The notes below the pieces were generated by a model. That model saw only the letters and a program-made list of their open reading frames with translations, was not told the origin of the DNA and did no database searches. This document shows, one piece after another, positions 1-56,936 of a DNA stretch of 56,936 nt. The translations under genes were made by a program, and so were the position numbers. This DNA comes from Oscillospiraceae bacterium (GTDB lineage Bacteria; Bacillota; Clostridia; Oscillospirales; Acutalibacteraceae): assembly GCA_015066005.1 (NCBI GenBank), contig SVPF01000010.1:1-56936 (forward strand). The letters are read 5' to 3'. The stretch's first letter is position 1. Each line of letters opens with the position of its first letter.

Positions 1-122
1 ATAAATAATAAAAAATGTGTGCCTACGGCACAATATATAAATCCGTCGGCAAAGCCGACACCGATTTTATTCTTTATTCTTTCTTATTTATTATTTAATC
101 GCGCAGCGATAAACTATAATTT
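1..122. repeat. repeat island 1 (cut by window start)
   Basis: Right-hand part of a modular repeat island. It contains a CCGTCG hairpin (about 42-62), a pyrimidine-rich AT tract and, at 107-122, the boundary word CGATAAACTATAATTT that ends most islands in this window. The tract at about 61-122 reappears inverted at the far end of the window (56801-56936), there interrupted by extra sequence. No gene is visible here. Confidence 0.75.
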
Positions 123-5074: not shown

Positions 5075-5252
5075 AAATTTTGGTTTAGCGCTGAGGCGAA
5101 ATTCGGAATTCGTAATTATTGTACAAATTAGATTGTGTATCTGTAGGGGCGATTCACGAATCGCCCGCCTGTGCATAGCCGCAATTTACGGACAATTCGT
5201 GAATTGTCCCTACGATGTGCCACCAATTTAACCGAGCGACAAACTATAATTT
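5075..5252. repeat. repeat island 2
   Basis: Fills much of the 5033-5433 gap. The left boundary AAATTTTGGTTTAGCG (5075-5090) is the inverse of the right boundary CGACAAACTATAATTT (5237-5252). The core holds a short ATTCGTAATT run and a REPIN-like pair (5142-5215). From 5253 to 5433 I see only AT-rich leader sequence of the next gene, with a TTGAAA at 5330. Confidence 0.7.
5142..5215. repeat. REPIN-like palindromic pair (family A, copy 1)
   Basis: Two inverted arms, 5142-5167 and 5189-5215, each beginning TGTAGGG at the outside and each containing its own small palindrome (GATTCACGAATC and AATTCGTGAATT). An almost exact copy in opposite orientation, also 74 bp, lies at 10628-10701. Confidence 0.85.
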
Positions 5253-10248: not shown

Positions 10249-10365
10249 ATGAAGTTTGAAGCTCCTGAAATTAACAAGGTTTCCTTCGAAACCGAAAATG
10301 TTGCTGCTGAAGGCGTTGGCGGAAACGGCTGGGATGTAACCGGCAGCGGCGCAGACGCAATTTAA
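10249..10365 (+). CDS. 38-residue peptide, copy 1 (unknown function)
   Basis: A short gene with a textbook ribosome-binding site (AAGGAGGAA, 6 nt spacing), 12 nt after the secreted-protein stop and followed by a terminator at 10389. The product begins MKFEAPEINKVSFETENV and ends in a glycine-rich tail, GVGGNGWDVTGSGADAI. It has no Cys, no signal peptide and no membrane segment. An identical gene is at 14375-14491 in the same context. The acidic front and Gly/Ser/Asp-rich tail recall precursor peptides, but no modifying enzyme or exporter lies nearby. It could equally be a small partner or chaperone of the secreted protein. I do not recognise it. Confidence 0.75.
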   Translation: MKFEAPEINKVSFETENVAAEGVGGNGWDVTGSGADAI

Positions 10366-10388
10366 TTTAAAAATTAAAGCTTAAAAGC

Positions 10389-10427
10389 ACAAGCCCTTCT
10401 CATTTTGGGAAGGGCTTGTTGTTTTAA
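10389..10427 (+). terminator. intrinsic terminator after peptide gene, copy 1
   Basis: Stem ACAAGCCCTT (10389-10398) with AAGGGCTTGT (10410-10419), then TGTTTT. Ends the unit that appears to start at the SIS gene. Confidence 0.85.
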
Positions 10428-10473
10428 TATTTTTCAAATTATAGTTTATCGGGATAATGAAGCACAAACCAAA

Positions 10474-10595
10474 GCCTTCCCCAGTAGGGGAAGGTGGCAG
10501 GCGAAGCCTGACGGATGAGGTGTAAAAAACAGTTTGTACTTACAAAGCTCCTCATCCACCGCTAAAGCGGTCCCCCTTCTCCCGCAGGAGAAGGC
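10474..10595. repeat. 122 bp imperfect palindrome, copy A
   Basis: Begins GCCTTCCCCAGTAGGGGAAG and ends in CTTCTCCCGCAGGAGAAGGC, so both ends are small hairpins and the whole is a near-palindrome. Copies: 12014-12135 (inverted), 14600-14721 (same orientation, identical), 21528-21653 (diverged) and 37012-37192 (with an insertion). Confidence 0.9.
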
Positions 10596-10627
10596 ATAGA
10601 TAAACCCCAATTTAATTGAGCTCATCG

Positions 10628-10701
10628 TGTAGGGACAATTCATGAATTGTCCGTAAATTGCGGCTATGCACAGGCGGGCGATTCGTGAATCGCCCCTACG
10701 A
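10628..10701. repeat. REPIN-like palindromic pair (family A, copy 2)
   Basis: 74 bp reverse-orientation copy of 5142-5215, including the spacer GCGGCTATGCACAGGC between the arms. The outer ends read TGTAGGG and CCCTACGA. Confidence 0.88.
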
Positions 10702-10865
10702 ATATACAATTAAATTGTTCTATAATTACGAATTACGCATTACGAATTACGCATTTTACCTAAGCGATAAACCCAATTTTAATCCGTCGCGAAGCGACAC
10801 CGAACCTCTTAACTATTACCTCTTACTTATTACCTCGCGCAAGCGATAAACCCCGATTAGCCAAA

Positions 10866-10892
10866 CAAAAAACAGCCCTTGTGGGCTGTTTT
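10866..10892 (-). terminator. terminator of the patatin-like gene
   Basis: Read on the minus strand: AAACAGCCC, loop ACAA, GGGCTGTTT, then a T run, directly behind the stop codon. Confidence 0.82.
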
Positions 10893-10894
10893 AA

Positions 10895-11761
10895 TTAGTC
10901 GGTTTTTTCCCAGTTCGACATACGCTTGGCGTACTTACGGGTCATAACATTTATTTTGTTAAGCACAACATCGACGGTCAAGCGGGGCTTACAATCAGCC
11001 TGCTGTTGCTCGTTATTGCGCTTAATTGCGGCCAAAATTTCGGCCTTATCATCGGTTTTAAAAACCTCATTTAAAACCTTCATTGTATAATCGTAACCGT
11101 ACTGTGCCATTTCATCAAAGGTGTCAGGTGTGAAAACCAGAGTTTCAAGGCGTTTATCGTTCGGAAAATCATAAAACTTTAAAATTTTACTGTCAAACGC
11201 TTCGTTTTCAAAGAAATATTTATGATTATCAAAATAAATACAAAGAATATAGTCCAAATCCTTCTCCATTAAAGGATAAGCGGGTATATTGTCAACAAAA
11301 GCACCGTCTAAAATGCGGTCACCGTTTATAATTTCACCCTTAACCAAAATAGGAATTGCAATTGCGCCCTTAACATATTGCTGGGTTTGCTCATAGCTTA
11401 GCTCGTGAAAGGGGATATATTCTACCTTGGATTTAGTAAAATTCCAAACAGCTACATAATGTTCAAAAAACAGCTTTGTATCGGGTGAAAAAACCTTGCA
11501 AATTTCATCCCTTATAGGTCCCGGGCCGCCATAGGTTAAAAACAGCCTGCCGTGCTTTTTGGGGTCAATCATCTTCCAAATGCGCGCAAATTCCTCAGGC
11601 TTGCCGACACCAAAGGTTTGCGCCGCCAGCATACCGATAGAAGCCGAGCTTACGCATTTTATTTCGTCTTTTTCAAAAAATTCGCCTATTGCTTTTATAA
11701 AGCCGTATTCGTAAGCGCCCTTACTTGCCGCACCCGACAGCAAAATACCGATTTTTGCCAT
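10895..11761 (-). CDS. patatin-like phospholipase with degenerate motifs
   Basis: 288 residues, patatin-like fold typical of bacterial serine acyl-hydrolases. The oxyanion-hole loop is SGAASKG (residues 9-15) instead of the usual GGGxxG. The nucleophile elbow is SASIG with S41, so the first glycine of GxSxG is serine. The dyad aspartate is D152 in DGAFVDN, where DGG is usual. The Ser and Asp are therefore present while flanking glycines are changed. No signal peptide is seen, so it should act on intracellular or membrane lipids. It is monocistronic with its own terminator, between repeat islands. Confidence 0.82.
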   Translation of the reverse strand: MAKIGILLSGAASKGAYEYGFIKAIGEFFEKDEIKCVSSASIGMLAAQTFGVGKPEEFARIWKMIDPKKHGRLFLTYGGPGPIRDEICKVFSPDTKLFFEHYVAVWNFTKSKVEYIPFHELSYEQTQQYVKGAIAIPILVKGEIINGDRILDGAFVDNIPAYPLMEKDLDYILCIYFDNHKYFFENEAFDSKILKFYDFPNDKRLETLVFTPDTFDEMAQYGYDYTMKVLNEVFKTDDKAEILAAIKRNNEQQQADCKPRLTVDVVLNKINVMTRKYAKRMSNWEKTD

Positions 11762-11994
11762 TTTAAAGCCTTTTCCCCTTCCTTTTTTGATTTACAGCAT
11801 ATTATAGCATATTTCTACATATTTTTCAATACAATTAAACCGCCACTTTATGTAATTTTTTACCCCCAGTAAAATTTTTAGGTAATATAATTTTATAAAC
11901 GACAGTCTGTGCACGAAGGTGTTTACAAAATAAAATTATGTTTAATTGGGGATAAAAATGAATAATATTTTAGCTGCCGCTTAGTAAGGGATAT

Positions 11995-12176
11995 AAATTG
12001 GGAGTTTATCTATGCCTTCTCCTGCGGGAGAAGGGGGACCGCTTCAGCGGTGGATGAGGAGCTTTGTAAGTACAAACTGTTTTTTACACCTCATCCGTCA
12101 GGCTTCGCCTGCCACCTTCCCCTACTGGGGAAGGCTTTGGTTTGTGCTATAACGGCAGCCCGACAAACTATAATTT
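11995..12176. repeat. repeat island 4
   Basis: Left boundary AAATTGGGAGTTTATC (11995-12010), right boundary CGACAAACTATAATTT (12161-12176), with an inverted 122 bp palindrome copy between. In the rest of the 11762-12367 gap I see the minus-strand leader of the patatin gene (11762 to about 11880), featureless AT-rich DNA to 11994, and a promoter-like region before 12368. Confidence 0.75.
12014..12135. repeat. 122 bp imperfect palindrome, copy B (inverted)
   Basis: Reverse complement of copies A and C with very few differences (for example CTTCAGCGG against CTAAAGCGG). Confidence 0.9.
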
Positions 12177-12279
12177 GCTGTTTAAATGCGCTTTGGTTAT
12201 GAATTTTGCCTTAAAAGAAGTCTTTTATTTGGACTTTTTGCTGATTTTGGCTTTTTTGCCATTATTTTAATAACAAGGC

Positions 12280-12307
12280 TTGCTTTTTATTTTTTATGTG
12301 CTATTAT
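12280..12307 (+). promoter_or_regulatory. possible promoter of secreted-protein gene 2
   Basis: TTGCTT (12280-12285) and TATTAT (12302-12307), 16 bp apart, about 60 nt before the start codon. A weak match. Confidence 0.4.
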
Positions 12308-12367
12308 ATAAGGTATAAGGGGAAATATTTTTATAATACCTAAAAAATTTTAAAAGGGGAATGAAAA

Positions 12368-14362
12368 ATGAAAAGAATTTTATCAATTGTTTTAACCCTC
12401 GCACTTTTATTAACGGCCCTTCCGTTAGCCCTCAGCGTAAGCGCTGCAGAGACAACCACTACTTATACTTTTTCCAGTTACACTGCAGGCACACAATACG
12501 CGCAAAACGAATCGCATGTATTAGATGACAACCTTACGCTTATCATTAACGGCTCACATCTTAATAGCCAAATACGACTTTATGCCGGTTCAAATGCAGT
12601 TTTTGAATCTAATAGAGTTATTACTGCTGTGTCAGTAAATGCAGGCTATAAGGTTGATACTCTCAATGTTTATGGCTCTACCGACGGCAGCGAATTCACC
12701 CTTATTCAAGCTGTTTCCATTTCTTCAACCAGCTACAAAGATTATTCCGTTACTATTCCGGAAAATGCAAATTATACCCAAATTAAAATCGAATCAACAA
12801 ATGCACAAATCCGTGTTGCAAAAGCAACCTTAACCTTTGGCGATTTAGCTGCTGGTGCATGTGAACATAATTATGAAGAAACCGGTCGAGTTGGTGCAAC
12901 CTGTACCTCAAGAGGTTCCATTACCAAAGTTTGTTCATTGTGCGAAGATGAAATCGTTGAGGTTTTAGATGATCTTGGCCACGACTATTTAAACGGCGAA
13001 TGTCAAAATTGCCACACCACTGATATTATTTTCGAATTTGGTAAGCTTGGCGCCGCATCGCATACTGATGGTTCTGAACTTGAAGAAAACACTGCATATG
13101 AAATAGATAACTATACTTTAACATTAACTGGTTTAAGTAAAGTATATGGAAATGCCAGAGATGCTAAAGGTAATAGTTGCTTAAAACTTGGTACGGGCAG
13201 TGTTGCTGCTACGCTTAATTTTACTGTTCCCTCAAATATTAGTGGCGTAATTATCAATGTTGCCAACTACAAAGCTAAAACTGCAACAATAACAATCAAC
13301 GATACTGATTATGATATTACCACCTCATCAGATAATGGCGAGTATATGTCCATCACTATTGACACTACTTCCACAAAAGCTATCGCACTCAACACAAACT
13401 CCGGTTCAGATCCCAGAATCATGATTAACTCCATCACCTTTGTTGTTGGTGAAACCACCGCTTGCACCCACGAAAACCAAACAACCGATATTACCAACGC
13501 AACCTACCTTAAGGACGGTTTAAAGGTTGTTACCTGTGATGACTGTGGCGAAGAGCTTTCAAGAGATGTGCTTCCCGCAGCTACCGCAGAACCTGTAGTA
13601 TATACCCCTTCTTACGATGCTGCAACAAACAAGTTAACTATTAACTGGACCTACAGCGATGATTTTGTTTTAGACATTGATGCCAACACAACCTTTAAGC
13701 TTTTCTATAAGCTAGGCGAATACGAAAACACCATTGATGTACCAAACACAGTAAGTGGCTCGGTTATCTTTGAAGGCTTTAACGCAGCAAGACTTGACGA
13801 TACACTTTACTTTGGCTTAACCGCAACAATTACAGATGTTGATACCGCCAAGTTTAACGCTGCTGCTGCAGGTCAGGTTGTTGCTTCCACCTTAGTTGAC
13901 GGTGACAGCAACCTTGGTAAGCTTATGGCTGCTATTAATTCTGCAACCGATGAAGCTGCTGTTGTTGCAGGTCAGGTTGATAATACTGACACCTTAGTTT
14001 CCAACACAATGAAGGCAGACCTTAAGGCAGGTACCCTTGACCTTCGCTTTGTTGCAAGCCAGACTTTAATTGAAAAGCTAAACACCCTTGGTAAAGAAGG
14101 CCGCACCGTAACCCTTACCGTTACAATTGGCGAAACCGTTACTAAGGATATTACAATTGATACACTTAAAAAGGTAACAATGGTTAAAATTACAGGTATG
14201 TCATTCGAACAGCTTAACAGCACAGTTACCGTAAAGCTTGGCTTTGACTATGAAGGAACTGAAAAAGACTTTACAACCGATGTTGTAGAATTCAACTGCG
14301 GCGAAATTATTGCTGATACCGATACTGCTGTTGCAAATGCATTCGAAGCTTTTATGAAATAA
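12368..14362 (+). CDS. secreted modular protein sharing domains with the nuclease downstream
   Basis: 664 residues. Signal peptide about 1-27 (LSVSAAE). Module 1, about 31-158, starts TYTFSSYTAGTQYA. Cys-rich knuckles follow (CEHNYE...CSLCED...CQNC, about 165-216). Module 2, about 219-360, starts IFEFGKLGAA and ends MINSITFVV. A second knuckle (THEN...CDDCGEE) precedes the C-terminal module, about 410-664. Modules 1 and 2, the knuckles and the C-terminal module occur in the same order behind the nuclease domain of the 14808 gene, so this protein looks like that enzyme without its catalytic domain. No catalytic motif is visible; adhesion or substrate binding is the likely role. AGGGGAA lies just before the ATG. 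Confidence 0.8.
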   Translation: MKRILSIVLTLALLLTALPLALSVSAAETTTTYTFSSYTAGTQYAQNESHVLDDNLTLIINGSHLNSQIRLYAGSNAVFESNRVITAVSVNAGYKVDTLNVYGSTDGSEFTLIQAVSISSTSYKDYSVTIPENANYTQIKIESTNAQIRVAKATLTFGDLAAGACEHNYEETGRVGATCTSRGSITKVCSLCEDEIVEVLDDLGHDYLNGECQNCHTTDIIFEFGKLGAASHTDGSELEENTAYEIDNYTLTLTGLSKVYGNARDAKGNSCLKLGTGSVAATLNFTVPSNISGVIINVANYKAKTATITINDTDYDITTSSDNGEYMSITIDTTSTKAIALNTNSGSDPRIMINSITFVVGETTACTHENQTTDITNATYLKDGLKVVTCDDCGEELSRDVLPAATAEPVVYTPSYDAATNKLTINWTYSDDFVLDIDANTTFKLFYKLGEYENTIDVPNTVSGSVIFEGFNAARLDDTLYFGLTATITDVDTAKFNAAAAGQVVASTLVDGDSNLGKLMAAINSATDEAAVVAGQVDNTDTLVSNTMKADLKAGTLDLRFVASQTLIEKLNTLGKEGRTVTLTVTIGETVTKDITIDTLKKVTMVKITGMSFEQLNSTVTVKLGFDYEGTEKDFTTDVVEFNCGEIIADTDTAVANAFEAFMK

Positions 14363-14374
14363 GGAGGAATTATA

Positions 14375-14491
14375 ATGAAGTTTGAAGCTCCTGAAATTAA
14401 CAAGGTTTCCTTCGAAACCGAAAATGTTGCTGCTGAAGGCGTTGGCGGAAACGGCTGGGATGTAACCGGCAGCGGCGCAGACGCAATTTAA
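14375..14491 (+). CDS. 38-residue peptide, copy 2 (unknown function)
   Basis: Identical at nucleotide level to the gene at 10249-10365, with the same AAGGAGGAA site, the same 12 nt distance from the upstream stop and the same terminator. Because the whole surrounding block is recently duplicated, identity alone does not show selection. The intact frame, strong ribosome-binding site and terminator directly behind it argue that the peptide is made. No third copy follows the nuclease gene, whose C-terminal module is the more diverged one. Confidence 0.75.
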   Translation: MKFEAPEINKVSFETENVAAEGVGGNGWDVTGSGADAI

Positions 14492-14514
14492 TTTAAAAAT
14501 TAAAGCTTAAAAGC

Positions 14515-14553
14515 ACAAGCCCTTCTCATTTTGGGAAGGGCTTGTTGTTTTAA
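14515..14553 (+). terminator. intrinsic terminator after peptide gene, copy 2
   Basis: Identical to the hairpin at 10389-10427. Confidence 0.85.
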
Positions 14554-14561
14554 TATTTTTC

Positions 14562-14740
14562 AAATTATAGTTTATCGGGATAATGAAGCACAAACCAAAG
14601 CCTTCCCCAGTAGGGGAAGGTGGCAGGCGAAGCCTGACGGATGAGGTGTAAAAAACAGTTTGTACTTACAAAGCTCCTCATCCACCGCTAAAGCGGTCCC
14701 CCTTCTCCCGCAGGAGAAGGCATAGATAAACTCCCAATTT
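14562..14740. repeat. repeat island 5
   Basis: Simple island: left boundary AAATTATAGTTTATCG, one 122 bp palindrome (14600-14721), right boundary GATAAACTCCCAATTT (14725-14740). This minimal layout shows the two boundary words as inverted repeats around a single module. Confidence 0.8.
14600..14721. repeat. 122 bp imperfect palindrome, copy C
   Basis: Identical to copy A (10474-10595), as part of the segmental duplication. Confidence 0.92.
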
Positions 14741-19320: not shown

Positions 19321-21381
19321 ATGGACAAAAAATTTGAAGCATTACAAACCCCTTGGAAAATTGGTAATGTAGAAATTAAAAACCGAATCGTGCTTTGCCC
19401 CATGGGCGGTACCTCACTTTTCGGTTGGTTCGAGCTTGGCGGCTGTCATTTTGACAAGGAAGCCGCAAAATTCTTTTTAGAGCGCGCCAACAATAATGTT
19501 GGTCTTATCATCCCGGGTATTGCACCGCTTCGTGACACATTTTGGGGTAAATGGCTTTGGCAGAACCCAAAAATGTTTGATGAATTAAAGGAATTTATGG
19601 ATGAAATTCATAAATCGGGCGCAAAATTATTTATTCAGCTGACCGCCGGTATGGGTAGAAGCTGGGCTATTACCGAGCTTGTAGCACCCCTTCATAAAAA
19701 CAAGGTTACACGCGCACTTATTAAGCCTATTATTGACACTAATCACGAGCTTGCTTCCCCCTCAGCACAGCCGTCACGCTGGGCACACGACATTATTTGC
19801 CCTGAAATGACGGTGGAGCAAATTCATGAAATTATTGAAGCCTTTGCCAAAACTGCCGCGCTTTGCAAAAAGGCGGGTGTTGACGGTGTTGAGGTTCACG
19901 CCGTTCACGAAGGCTATTTATTAGACCAATTCTCAATTGAATTTTTCAACAAGCGCACCGATGAATACGGCGGAAGCTTTGAAAACCGCTATCGCTTTGC
20001 GGCCGAGGTTGTTAAAGCAATTAAGGCCGAATGCGGTGAGGATTTTCCCGTGTCGCTTCGTTATTCGGTAGAATCTAAAATGAAGGGCTTCTGCGAAGGC
20101 GCAATGCCGGGTGAAGATTATGTCGAAGTCGGTCGTAATATGGCCGAAAGCGAAAAGGCCGCTAAATATTTACAGGATGCAGGCTACGATATGCTTAATG
20201 CCGATAACGGTACTTACGATTCGTGGTATTGGGCACATCCTCCTATGTATATGCCCCAAAACTGCAATTTAGAAGATGTTTCCCACATTAAAAAGTTTGT
20301 GGATATTCCCGTTGTTTGTGCAGGCAGAATGGAACCCGATGTTGCCGCAAAAGCAATTGCCGACGGCAAAATTGATGCAATGGGTGTTGCACGACAGTTT
20401 TTAACCGACCCCGAATGGATAACAAAGATGCTTAAGGACCGCCTTGAAGACATTAAGCCCTGTATTTGCTGTCACGCAGGCTGCTTTAACTTCTCATCCT
20501 CGAAGGGACACGCAAATACACAAGACCTTACCGACACAATGGGCCTTGCTCGTTGCGCCTTAAACCCCAAGACAATGCAGTCAGGTAAATACAAGCTTAC
20601 CCCCGCTAAAAAGAGCAAGAATGTTGCTATTATCGGCGGCGGTATCGGTGGTATGGAAGCCGCTATCGTTTGCGCACAGCGCGGTCATAAGGTAACCCTT
20701 TATGAAAAGACCGATAAACTCGGCGGTGTGTTTATTGCGGCGGCCGCACCCTCTTTTAAAGAAAAGGACCGTGACCTTATTGCTTGGTACAACCGCGAAA
20801 TTAAGAAATATCCCATTGATATTAAGCTTAATACCGAGGTTAAGGATGTTAAGTCGCTTAATGCTGACGAGATTATCGTTGCTACAGGCGCTGTGGCTAA
20901 AAATATTCCCATTAAAAACATTGAAACCACCGTTGAAGCGGTTGATTATTTACTTGGCAACAAACCTGTTGGAGATAACGTTGTTATCATCGGCGGCGGT
21001 CTTACAGGCTGTGAAATTGCTTATGATTTATTCTTGCAAGGCAAAAAGCCCACAATTGTTGAAATGCAGGACGACCTTATTGTAACCCCAGGTATTTGCC
21101 TTGCTAATACAAGCTTTTTGCGTGACTTCTTTAAAACAAATAACGTACCCGTCCATTTGGAAACCAAGCTTAATGCCATTAACGACGGCAGTGTAACCGT
21201 TACCGACAAGGACGGTAAACAGTTTGATATTCCTTGCGACAGCGTAATTATGTCGGTTGGTTATAACCCCGCCCCCATTGCCAAAAAGGGTGGCAAGATT
21301 CACGTTATCGGTGATGCCGCAAATGTAGGCAACCTTCGCACAGTTATTTGGGGTGCGTGGGATGTATGTATGAAGCTTTGA
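19321..21381 (+). CDS. old yellow enzyme-type NADH:flavin oxidoreductase / 2,4-dienoyl-CoA reductase family
   Basis: 686 residues, three-part architecture. Residues about 1-370 are an FMN TIM barrel (LQTPWKIGNVEIKNRIVLCP at the front). A 4Fe-4S site is formed by cysteines 381, 384, 388 and probably 412; the last spacing is longer than the usual 11-12 residues. An FAD fold follows with IIGGGIGGMEAA (about 437) and a nested NADH fold with IIGGGLTGCEIAYD. Relatives include 2,4-dienoyl-CoA reductase, trimethylamine dehydrogenase and the bile-acid enzymes BaiCD/BaiH, so the substrate cannot be assigned. AAAGGAG precedes the ATG. It is monocistronic. Reduction of an enoate or related compound in anaerobic metabolism is likely. 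Confidence 0.9.
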   Translation: MDKKFEALQTPWKIGNVEIKNRIVLCPMGGTSLFGWFELGGCHFDKEAAKFFLERANNNVGLIIPGIAPLRDTFWGKWLWQNPKMFDELKEFMDEIHKSGAKLFIQLTAGMGRSWAITELVAPLHKNKVTRALIKPIIDTNHELASPSAQPSRWAHDIICPEMTVEQIHEIIEAFAKTAALCKKAGVDGVEVHAVHEGYLLDQFSIEFFNKRTDEYGGSFENRYRFAAEVVKAIKAECGEDFPVSLRYSVESKMKGFCEGAMPGEDYVEVGRNMAESEKAAKYLQDAGYDMLNADNGTYDSWYWAHPPMYMPQNCNLEDVSHIKKFVDIPVVCAGRMEPDVAAKAIADGKIDAMGVARQFLTDPEWITKMLKDRLEDIKPCICCHAGCFNFSSSKGHANTQDLTDTMGLARCALNPKTMQSGKYKLTPAKKSKNVAIIGGGIGGMEAAIVCAQRGHKVTLYEKTDKLGGVFIAAAAPSFKEKDRDLIAWYNREIKKYPIDIKLNTEVKDVKSLNADEIIVATGAVAKNIPIKNIETTVEAVDYLLGNKPVGDNVVIIGGGLTGCEIAYDLFLQGKKPTIVEMQDDLIVTPGICLANTSFLRDFFKTNNVPVHLETKLNAINDGSVTVTDKDGKQFDIPCDSVIMSVGYNPAPIAKKGGKIHVIGDAANVGNLRTVIWGAWDVCMKL

Positions 21382-21395
21382 TAAAGCTTCATACA
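21367..21395 (+). terminator. hairpin at the 3' end of the oxidoreductase gene
   Basis: Stem TGTATGAAGCTT (21367-21378) with AAGCTTCATACA (21384-21395). The stop codon lies in the loop. A clear T run is missing, so termination strength is uncertain. Confidence 0.5.
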
Positions 21396-21397
21396 AA

Positions 21398-21671
21398 TGA
21401 AGAATGAAAAATGAATAATGAATAATTTTGGTGTCGCTTCGCGACGGATATAAATTGGGGTTTATCTAATTCGTAATGCGTAATTCGTAATGCGTAATTC
21501 GGAATGCGTAATGACTGTACAAACCAAGCCTTCTCCGGTGGGAGAAGGTGGCGCCGATAGGCGACGGATGAGGCGTAAATAATACAACTTGCGATTAAAA
21601 CACCTCATCCACCAAACTTGCGTTTGGTCCCCCCTTCCCCTACTGGGGAAGGCAACGATAAACTATAATTT
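21398..21671. repeat. repeat island 6
   Basis: Fills most of the 21382-21722 gap. A GGTGTCGCTTCGCGACGG hairpin with an AT-rich flank, the boundary AAATTGGGGTTTATC (21452-21466), an ATTCGTAATGCGTA run (about 21468-21511), a diverged 122 bp palindrome (21528-21653) and the boundary CGATAAACTATAATTT (21656-21671). Confidence 0.75.
21528..21653. repeat. 122 bp imperfect palindrome, copy D (diverged)
   Basis: Same ends (GCCTTCTCC...GGGGAAGGC) and central GACGGATGAGG / CCTCATCCACC blocks as copies A-C, but the loops differ. Confidence 0.82.
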
Positions 21672-28501: not shown

Positions 28502-29014
28502 ATGGAATTAAAATCACGAAAACCGAATAGATTAGAAAATTACGATTATAGCCAAAACGGAGCATATTTTATTACGATATGTGTTAAAGATAGAAAACCA
28601 ATTTTAAGCAAAATTGTAGGGACAGGCGTCCCCGACTGTCCGAGAATTTTATTATTACCGTATGGTGAAATTGCTGATAAATATATACATCAATTTAATA
28701 ATTTTTATGAACATATTTCGGTTATTAAATACGTTATTATGCCCGACCACATACATTTTTTAATATCAATATCTAACGGACAGTCGAGGACGCCTGTCCC
28801 TACGCGCGGTAACATTAAAATTTATAATAAGAATTCAACAATCGCAAAATTTGTAAGCACCTTTAAAAGGTTTTGTAACAAAGAATTTGGTAATAACATC
28901 TGGCAAGCGCGATACTACGACCATATTATCCGCAATCAAGAGGATTACAACGAAAAGTGGGATTATATTGAAAACAATCCTAAAAAATATGCATTAAAAA
29001 ACCAAGACGATTGA
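28502..29014 (+). CDS. REP-associated tyrosine transposase (RAYT, Y1/IS200-like)
   Basis: 170 residues, HUH-type Y1 transposase domain. The metal-binding HxH is H83-I-H85 in MPDHIHFL; the candidate nucleophile is Y138 or Y139 in WQARYYDHIIRN. RAYTs are single-copy, non-self-propagating relatives of IS200 thought to move REP/REPIN sequences. Two short segments of the protein, VGTGVPDCPR (about residues 38-48) and GQSRTPVPTRG (about 93-103), are translations of the REP sequence itself, described separately. The start ATG is 58 nt after the secA stop without a strong ribosome-binding site, so expression may be low. Confidence 0.88.
   Translation: MELKSRKPNRLENYDYSQNGAYFITICVKDRKPILSKIVGTGVPDCPRILLLPYGEIADKYIHQFNNFYEHISVIKYVIMPDHIHFLISISNGQSRTPVPTRGNIKIYNKNSTIAKFVSTFKRFCNKEFGNNIWQARYYDHIIRNQEDYNEKWDYIENNPKKYALKNQDD
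28615..28642 (+). repeat. REP arm inside the transposase gene (left)
   Basis: Begins TGTAGGGACAGGCGTCCCCG and continues to ACTGTCCG. It matches the left arm of the intergenic pair at 50883-50910 almost base for base, but here it is read in frame as part of the RAYT. Confidence 0.9.
28777..28803 (-). repeat. REP arm inside the transposase gene (right, inverted)
   Basis: Reverse complement of the left arm apart from one internal base and the last base. The arms are 190 bp apart outside to outside, against 77 bp in the intergenic copy at 50883-50959. Confidence 0.9.
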
Positions 29015-36970: not shown

Positions 36971-37333
36971 AAATTATAGTTTATAGGGCTAACGAAATTG
37001 TACAGACCAATGCCTTCCCCAGTGGGTAATTCCCCTACTAGAGGAAATGTCGCGTAGCGACAAAAGGGTTTCCGTTTTTGGAGAAAAAAGGTGGCAGGCG
37101 AAGCCTGACGGATGAGGTGTAAAGAAGATTTTCCACTTACAAAACTCCTCATCCACCGCTAAAGCGGTCCCCCTTCTCCCGCAGGAGAAGGCTTTCGGGC
37201 GATCAACAATCGCCCCTACGAATATACAATTAAATCAATAAAATCAACAATTTTAATCCGTCGCGAAGCGACACCGAACCTCTTCACTATTACCTCTTAC
37301 TTATTACCTCTCTTAAGCGCTAAACCCCAATTT
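36971..37333. repeat. repeat island 7 (composite)
   Basis: Fills the 36923-37331 gap. Left boundary AAATTATAGTTTATAG (36971-36986); a 122 bp palindrome enlarged to 181 bp by an internal insertion (37012-37192); one arm of a family A REPIN (37196-37221); a CCGTCGCGAAGCGACACC hairpin (from about 37258) with pyrimidine-rich tract; right boundary CGCTAAACCCCAATTT (37318-37333), which overlaps the stop codon of the minus-strand gene 37332-37520. The tail from about 37252 matches island 3 at 10776-10858. Confidence 0.75.
37012..37192. repeat. 122 bp imperfect palindrome, copy E (with insertion)
   Basis: Same ends as copies A-C. About 60 extra bases sit after the first small hairpin and include their own hairpin (GTCGCGTAGCGAC). 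Confidence 0.82.
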
Positions 37334-50206: not shown

Positions 50207-50848
50207 ATGTTCAATTTTAAATTACCCGAATATTTATTAAACCCATCGGCTGAAGATATTATGCCATTTTTTGTAATAATTTTGTATGTTGCAATTTTTG
50301 GCACAATGTTTGCTTTTTTATTTGTTGTTTGGCTTTTTAAAGCAATAAGTGTTTTTAAGATGAGCAAAAAGTTAAACCTTCAAATGCCGTGGATTGGTTT
50401 TATTCCCTATGCTTTACCGTTTGCTTACGGTCGTTTAGCCGAGCAATATAACGGTAAAATTTTGAAAAAACCAATTAAATTTTCAATTTTGCTTTTAGTA
50501 TTGCAGTTTGTTCCCGGCTTGTTGATTACTGTATTTTATGTTTTGTTTTTTGTTGTTATAATTTTTGTTGCATTGATAGAATCAGAAATTTTATTGTTTA
50601 TATCGGTTTTGGTTTGGTATTTTGCAATGCTTATTATTATGTTTGCATCAACCTTTGCAATAAATTTCTTTAACTACCTTGCTTGCTGGAATGTTTTTGC
50701 AATATTTGGCGGCGAAAAGAATATACTTTACTTTATTCTTTCAGTTACATTAGGAATTGAACCATTTTTACTTTTTGCACTTCGTAACAAGGAGCCTCAA
50801 AATTTAAAGGAAGAATTTGTTGTTCCTGAAATTGTGGAAGAAAATTAA
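50207..50848 (+). CDS. membrane protein of unknown function (paralogue pair, 2)
   Basis: 213 residues, about six hydrophobic segments, homologous to the gene 26 nt upstream (shared KMSKKLNL...PWIGFIPY and FALRNKEP blocks). TTAGGAG precedes the ATG. Its stop codon touches the left boundary word of repeat island 8 (50847), so the island lies immediately behind the gene. Confidence 0.75.
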   Translation: MFNFKLPEYLLNPSAEDIMPFFVIILYVAIFGTMFAFLFVVWLFKAISVFKMSKKLNLQMPWIGFIPYALPFAYGRLAEQYNGKILKKPIKFSILLLVLQFVPGLLITVFYVLFFVVIIFVALIESEILLFISVLVWYFAMLIIMFASTFAINFFNYLACWNVFAIFGGEKNILYFILSVTLGIEPFLLFALRNKEPQNLKEEFVVPEIVEEN

Positions 50849-50993
50849 ATTTTGGTTTATAGCACAGACTATATTTTCATTTTGTAGGGACAGGCCTCCC
50901 GGACTGTCCGTTTATTAAGGCAAATTCCTAACGGGCAGTCGAGGACGCCTGCCCCTACGAATCCTTAATTAAGTCCCCTACAAACTATAATTT
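50847..50993. repeat. repeat island 8
   Basis: Left boundary AAATTTTGGTTTATAG (50847-50862), a REPIN of family B (50883-50959), right boundary CTACAAACTATAATTT (50978-50993). A clean example of a single module between inverted boundary words. Confidence 0.8.
50883..50959. repeat. REPIN-like palindromic pair (family B)
   Basis: Arms 50883-50910 (TGTAGGGACAGGCCTCCCGG and on) and 50932-50959, inverted, 21 bp apart. The arm sequence is the one embedded in the RAYT gene at 28615-28642 and 28777-28803. Confidence 0.9.
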
Positions 50994-56800: not shown

Positions 56801-56936
56801 AAATTATATTTTATCGCTGCGCGATTAAATAATAAATAAGAAAGAATAAGAACTTGACCCTTTGACAAAATCAGAGATTTTGAAAGGGTGCCCCAAAACC
56901 TTGCCACGCATAGCGTGTAAAAGAATAAAATCGGTG
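56801..56936. repeat. repeat island 9 (cut by window end)
   Basis: Starts with the boundary AAATTATATTTTATCG (56801-56816), then GCGCG plus a purine-rich tract that is the reverse complement of about 73-104, followed by an extra hairpin (ACCCTTTGACAAAATC facing GATTTTGAAAGGGT) and AATAAAATCGGTG, the reverse complement of about 59-71. So it is an inverted, interrupted copy of island 1. Confidence 0.75.

Follow-up and report, generated by a model that had tools for sequence, protein, structure and literature searches.

Conserved two-tip slots with apparently exchangeable hairpin contents in related uncultured gut bacteria

Introduction

In the BOX elements of streptococci, according to the relevant passages of one study, constant end modules enclose variable inner modules, and in S. 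suis two end pairs surround the same boxB (PMC3049150). The GC clusters of yeast mitochondria, in the part of their description concerned here, are palindromic, merge and shuffle, and comprise many types with one common 13-nt end; stand-alone and merged forms occupy the same homologous site, with a putative target duplication (PMC4478555). Here we describe hairpin-filled islands between paired inverted tips in a contig (SVPF01000010.1, assembly GCA_015066005.1) of an Oscillospiraceae bacterium; the window is this whole stretch of 56,936 nucleotides, which is contig C4 of the 2.0-Mb genome G000. An earlier note on the window had proposed a non-autonomous, cassette-collecting element in which constant termini enclose changeable cargo. 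The cassette idea seems partly right: comparison with related genomes suggests that contents turn over in inherited slots and do not move with their ends.

Results

Paired tips

Tips were defined by the pattern AAATT(N3-4)GTTTATCG, with the reversed pattern as control. G000 contains 83 exact copies (control, 0) and 158 copies with at most one mismatch (control, 9). Within the window, AAATTNNNGTTTATCG with at most two mismatches gave 21 matches (5.8 expected; maximum in 100 shuffles, 13) and the N4 form 13 (5.6 expected; largest of the shuffles, 12), of which four are register duplicates of N3 tips and those at 11995 and 14724 are true N4 tips. Every position at which the earlier note had placed a tip holds one, and the paired tip islands that it reported are real. 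The tip types, tip clusters and core signatures given below derive from stretches fetched around tip matches, that is, chosen around tips, and the 57-kb window is the only unbiased sample for core signatures inside and outside islands.

The fetched G000 stretches hold 148 tips, comprising 73 of type L (ATA type; consensus TTCAAATTATAGTTTATCG), 69 of type R (GGG type; consensus CGATAAACCCCAATTTA) and 6 others, some of which resemble chance matches; the two ends are thus not equivalent, as had been supposed. L and R share 13 of 16 tip positions and form inverted pairs, and so have the terminal inverted repeats of a miniature inverted-repeat transposable element (MITE). A conserved TTC (T 0.89, T 0.92, C 0.81) lies outside the L tips and one conserved T (0.77, read towards the tip) outside the R tips. 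The 148 tips form 84 clusters, 56 with at least two tips and 28 with one; 17 of these 28 reach a contig end within 280 bp, and inspection by eye gave a degenerate partner for seven of the remaining 11. Because only about four clusters have neither a partner nor a contig end, tips without a partner are uncommon in G000, and the common solitary tips that the note had named as a possible refutation were not found; constant paired termini around exchangeable contents occur genome-wide. L tips (107–122 and others) read outward contain TATAAT, a perfect match to the −10 consensus hexamer. We found no Rfam match in the window, which speaks against a known RNA, and exact TTCAAATTATAGTTTATCG was absent from the viral contig set searched, which leaves a viral source without support.

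Orthologous sites

We compared 144 islands from six genomes automatically, keeping islands whose tips had at most two mismatches each and three together. This yielded 19 pairs of occupied orthologous islands, spread over 15 sites, of which two contributed three pairs each. Tip direction was identical in all 18 callable pairs, whereas content was alike end to end in 1 of 19. Flank identity in the 14 pairs that include G000 was 67–97% (median, 87%). Of the 38 sides adjoining tips, 30 reached 60% identity or more across 30 bp, and 26 of these were exactly in register (control, 5/500). Every pair had at least one side that passed the register check except G063–G000, which was excluded; with the addition of the hand-read sites 50847, C29:74027 and C52:28206, this gives 17 orthologous sites occupied in at least two species, at which flanks, tips and tip direction are kept and contents are alike at two. 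The six hand-read sites shared by G000 and G052 match in position, tips and direction, but none matches in content; between G000 and G027, content is the same at 50847 and different at the four other sites (4/5). At C52:38050 and C15:17481, three species carry three contents. Orthologous contents resembled each other no more than contents paired at random across genomes (mean normalised similarity, 0.150 versus 0.127; P = 0.29); for 10 of 11 pairs, the closest match of the G000 content lay at another site of G000. Species thus have slots in common, with their tips and direction, whereas at most sites the contents are unrelated between species. This departs from the earlier picture of termini and cargo moving as one element: at orthologous sites position, tips and direction stay and contents change.

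Slots are also gained and lost. Comparison of occupied with empty orthologous sites, which the note had called for, showed that some relatives have an island where others have none: C5:53950, C52:16319, C5:42401, C38:83269 and window 21452 are occupied in G000 with tips absent in relatives, and the last of these has no tips in five relatives. G061 shows deletion relics at two sites, including a shrunken relic at 50847; a bare 43-bp palindrome occurs in G013 and a 44-bp island in G000 at C50:12448. As the empty sites seen have no boundary words, tips arrive with the first occupation and then stay. The note had set against itself the case in which inner modules move and boundary words are ancestral; this largely agrees with what we see, except that the boundary words are absent from the empty sites seen. 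No direct repeat resembling a target duplication was seen at the empty sites, where AT-rich flanks blur the register. AATT, a palindrome in both tips, was rejected as a target duplication: the empty sites seen are without it, which assigns it to the slot.

Tip words and cassettes

Linkage between tip words and contents was assessed on 16-nt tips with called direction (115 of 144 islands; 13 of 19 orthologous pairs). The R word AAATTNNN differs by 0.57 mismatches in same-cassette pairs (n = 40) and 0.53 in others (n = 2021), and GTTTATCG of the R tip is partially linked to the cassette (0.72 versus 1.13 mismatches; 40 versus 2021 pairs). The first inner base differs in 0.00–0.03 of same-cassette pairs and 0.53 of the remainder, and thus goes with the cassette. 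With strict words, R divergence is 7.2% against 2.5% for content; because it exceeds that of the content and has no family link, the R word does not travel with the cassette. An earlier comparison with wider words, made on 50 of the 84 clusters (27 pairs), gave divergences of 1.8% for contents, 13.8% for R and 7.4% for L, the last figure taking in three bases beyond the tip. A single cassette, D, recurs almost unchanged at 14 L ends and at 11 distinct R ends, which argues for copying and not swapping.

Island contents

The cores between tips are hairpin-rich and without genes. They combine double hairpins of REPIN type (A, A', B and C), the D cassette, hairpins of a CGATAT family and heptamer arrays that include a hairpin; D is near-palindromic, and its islands measure 176 or 248 bp. 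B and C cores are directly seen to consist of two inverted GTAG-headed repetitive extragenic palindromic (REP) sequences, which is not so in the A, D and heptamer modules. Mosaics are formed: 57 islands show 28 arm combinations, that is, constant ends with permutable inner modules in the manner of BOX, and some arms adjoin both tip types. Counted inside and outside islands of the fetched stretches, with palindromic signatures scored on both strands, core signatures number 88/4 for B (the four outside sit in a C53 tandem island of unmarked extent), 14/0 for D, 14/2 for C, 32/3 for A and 20/1 for A', and the hairpin of the heptamer module 24/2. In the window, cores also lie in islands and not as scattered REPs, as the note had held, with the exception of two hairpins in a RAYT gene and one array of hairpins that adjoins an island.

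By RNA folding energy, thirty islands were much more stable than their shuffles (median z, −5.0; left flanks, which include terminators, −2.5). Of 358 pairs with similar contents, 58 have them inverted with respect to the tips; among these, the 25 listed seem without exception to be D, a near-palindrome scored on its better strand. By eye, A' is inverted between C1:5586 and C44:19690. The same content can apparently face either way between its tips. Two different REP hairpins (G000 C5:55867–56107 and C50:35254–35745) each carry at their apex an element of ~83 bp, which is oppositely oriented in the two. No paired-tip island larger than ~500 bp that might be a related autonomous element was seen in the fetched stretches, though no full transposase search was made.

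Distribution among species

L tips with at most one mismatch occur in 10 of 70 species of the genus: seven genomes carry 72 (G000), 60 (G027), 25 (G052), 19 (G007), 18 (G061), 10 (G013) and 6 (G001), and three further species one or two each. In other genera of the family, sampled from a larger group, 3 of 392 genomes have one exact L tip each (reversed control, 0). The nearest named relatives of one window protein (66–68% identity) come from Clostridia assemblies of goat and water deer gut.

Placement relative to genes

Among the 54 clusters tested (of 56 with at least two tips), the L tip faces a gene 3' end in 37 (P = 0.009) and the R tip in 28, so that the suggested preference for gene 3' ends holds for L tips and not for R tips. 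A terminator-like hairpin lies within 70 bp of 55 of 73 L tips and 31 of 71 R tips (P = 2e-4). A T-run was found on the tip side of hairpins beside L tips in 55/73 and on the far side in 54/73; the figures beside R tips are 31/71 and 23/71, and in shuffled sequence ~0.26 and ~0.23. The T-run scan was discarded as a guide to terminator direction, the two L counts being near equal. Upstream of the islands C5:53950 and C52:16319, terminator stems at orthologous positions differ wholesale among species.

The Y1 transposase gene

A plus-strand open reading frame (ORF) at 28502..29014 encodes a RAYT-like Y1 transposase (PF01797, E = 7e-6) and contains two C-type REP hairpins within its frame (28616–28642 and 28777–28803). 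Its product is a possible mover of REPIN cores. There are five Y1 matches in G000, none in G001 and none in G052, which is 98% complete and fragmented and may have lost Y1 recently. Y1 transposase as the exchange enzyme was rejected, as slots occur in G052 and G001 without a Y1 match; it seems not to be needed for slots because none was detected in the slot-bearing G052.

Islands of the window

Both window ends are contig ends within one and the same repeated cassette. At the left end, a truncated minus-strand island (1..122) has an exact L tip (107–122) and part of the D cassette, the same D as at other G000 ends; at the right, a truncated plus-strand island (56801..56936) has an L tip with one mismatch and part of D. 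The minus-strand island at 5075..5252 runs from an R-side tip of variant TTG (5075–5090) through a B-type REPIN and a short ATTACG module to an L tip (5237–5252). A plus-strand tandem island begins with a unit of L tip, A-type core and R tip (10436..10613); its remainder (10614..10859) comprises a AATTGAGCTCATCG start, a B-type REPIN, ATTACG heptamers, an R-like tip (10765–10780), a hairpin with heptamers and a further R-like tip (10844–10859). The latter and the tip at 50978 carry two mismatches each. Two islands have an A-type core between an L tip and an N4 R tip: 11995..12176 on the minus strand (R, 11995–12011; L, 12161–12176) and 14562..14740 on the plus strand (R, 14724–14740). On the minus strand, 21452..21671 holds an R tip (21452–21467), ATTACG heptamers, an A-type core and an L tip (21656–21671). 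The plus-strand island 36971..37333 has an L tip, an A-type core with an insertion, a B-type hairpin, a hairpin with heptamers and an R tip that overlaps a minus-strand stop codon; the minus-strand island 50847..50993 has an R-side tip (variant TTG) that overlaps the stop codon of ORF 50207–50848, a C-type REPIN and an L tip (50978–50993). The overlaps with stop codons reported at 37332 and 50847 are therefore present.

In tandem islands (10614–10640 and five other G000 islands), the R tip is joined to the special start AATTGAGCTCATCG, once AATTAAGCTCATCG; this start is then followed by a B core, whichever first unit precedes it. A short precursor-like peptide gene with a terminator occurs in near-identical copies at 10300–10436, 14362–14562 and G000 C53:65665; an A cassette follows two of the copies and other contents the third. 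Outside an island, at 21380–21451, degenerate heptamers (AATGAAG, AATGAAA, AATGAAT) form an array with a GGTGTCGCTTCGCGACGGAT hairpin; the same intergenic site in relatives holds other heptamer arrays, with or without a hairpin. These heptamers may resemble the STRR heptamers of cyanobacteria.

Discussion

We consider it about as likely as not that the contents of these inherited slots are overwritten by ectopic gene conversion from other slots. Contents would be overwritten by non-reciprocal copying out of other slots, anchored by the tips and shared inner modules and perhaps triggered by breakage of strongly palindromic contents; new slots would arise, more rarely, via a transposition step. 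Gene conversion is preferred because it also yields mosaics and content families within one genome. More tentatively, and with distinctly less confidence, the islands could represent a dispersed bacterial cassette system in which chromosomal slots bounded by a pair of inverted, non-equivalent tips outlast speciation, and interchangeable non-coding hairpin cassettes spread among the slots as copies, mostly irrespective of their sequence and orientation.

Several observations weigh against inherited slots with overwritten contents. The tips provide only 13–19 bp of homology, which is short for ordinary homologous recombination; four orthologous pairs besides the matching one have a 25–72 bp segment in common; and the comparison is at species level, among genomes that are all fragmented. 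The L word varies too little to reveal whether it travels (1.9% versus 2.5% for content), and orthologous R words are barely more alike than non-orthologous ones (0.46 versus 0.58; 13 pairs). A test on the D cassette had at first suggested tips older than contents (14/439 versus 2/1061; P = 2e-6), but this weakens to P = 0.005 once the innermost base is moved, and with strict tips there is no difference (3/376 versus 6/1072; P = 0.70). D was therefore dropped as evidence that tips are older than contents, the signal lying in the edge bases; the claim rests on the orthologous sites and the R word, and our confidence in the mechanism is slightly lowered.

Ranked next after gene conversion, and in our view unlikely, is loss followed by refilling, in which a content is deleted and small hairpin elements insert at the apex of the bare hairpin slot that remains. 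The G013 palindrome, the 44-bp island at C50:12448 and the G061 relics at two sites could be such slots, and contents in both orientations, like the ~83-bp element in two REP apices, fit this course; yet bare slots are rare among the islands seen, mosaics and shared arms would require an extra recombination step, and the insertion at C52:38050 sits between two hairpins, not at an apex. Somewhat more doubtful is a dedicated recombinase or homing enzyme that recognises the tips and swaps cassettes. It would account for the tip direction kept in all callable pairs, for same-cassette similarity that begins at the inner edge of the tip and for the restriction of tips to a few species of one genus; however, copy number rises, unlike in reciprocal exchange, and no enzyme gene was found inside any island (genome-wide, the Y1 family alone was searched, with none in G052).

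Ordinary MITEs that move whole and inserted independently at the same favoured positions are improbable. Inverted termini, small size and empty sites in relatives speak for them, but against them stand a register kept on 26 of the 30 sides that could be aligned, a common direction in all 18 callable pairs, empty sites at which no shared target word was seen and an R word unlinked to content. We give very little credence to a metagenome assembly artefact in which repeated contents became attached to wrong flanks. It is true that all tip-rich genomes examined are fragmented and that 17 of 28 single-tip clusters in G000 are at a contig end. Yet the tips are short compared with usual assembly words, so that flank–tip–content joins need spanning reads, contents differ by whole families, and the pattern recurs in several separate genomes.

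If overwriting of inherited slots is correct, a small repeat passes on its address but not its content, an outcome outside the predictions of ordinary MITE and REPIN models. Slots are often situated between the end of one gene and its neighbour, where each change of content could affect promoters or the ends of transcripts anew. Such slots occur in a few related uncultured gut bacteria, with fillings that look as if overwritten repeatedly. Given content families within one genome and easily found tips, the exchange step is directly testable in strain genomes.

The nearest described kinds are BOX elements and yeast mitochondrial GC clusters. Like the islands, BOX elements are small interspersed repeats with constant ends and permutable inner modules, a likeness of plan; as far as the relevant passages go, they vary at orthologous sites in the length or number of inner modules, whereas in the islands the whole content is replaced (PMC3049150). 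In GC clusters, too, palindromes merge and shuffle at a single site, but these clusters are mitochondrial, and the pertinent part of their description mentions no constant inverted tip pair holding replaceable content (PMC4478555). REPINs and RAYTs, in the portions of two accounts relevant here, resemble the B and C cores, which are inverted GTAG-headed hairpin pairs, and G000 has Y1 genes (PMC3116915, PMC3733652). Unlike plain REPINs, those described here fill a larger unit, and G052 has slots without a Y1 match. MITEs are likewise short, apparently non-coding, bounded by inverted termini and present or absent at given sites; unlike them, the islands have no detected target duplication or autonomous parent, and their contents do not stay with the tips. 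The island word GTTTATC does not fit the integron attC core GTTRRRY. In the open-licence PMC literature searched, we recognised no case of bacterial contents being exchanged between fixed inverted tips, and the cited passages describe no such tips with wholly replaced content. We place the islands, as a variant, among modular palindromic repeats; their exchange step may be of a new kind.

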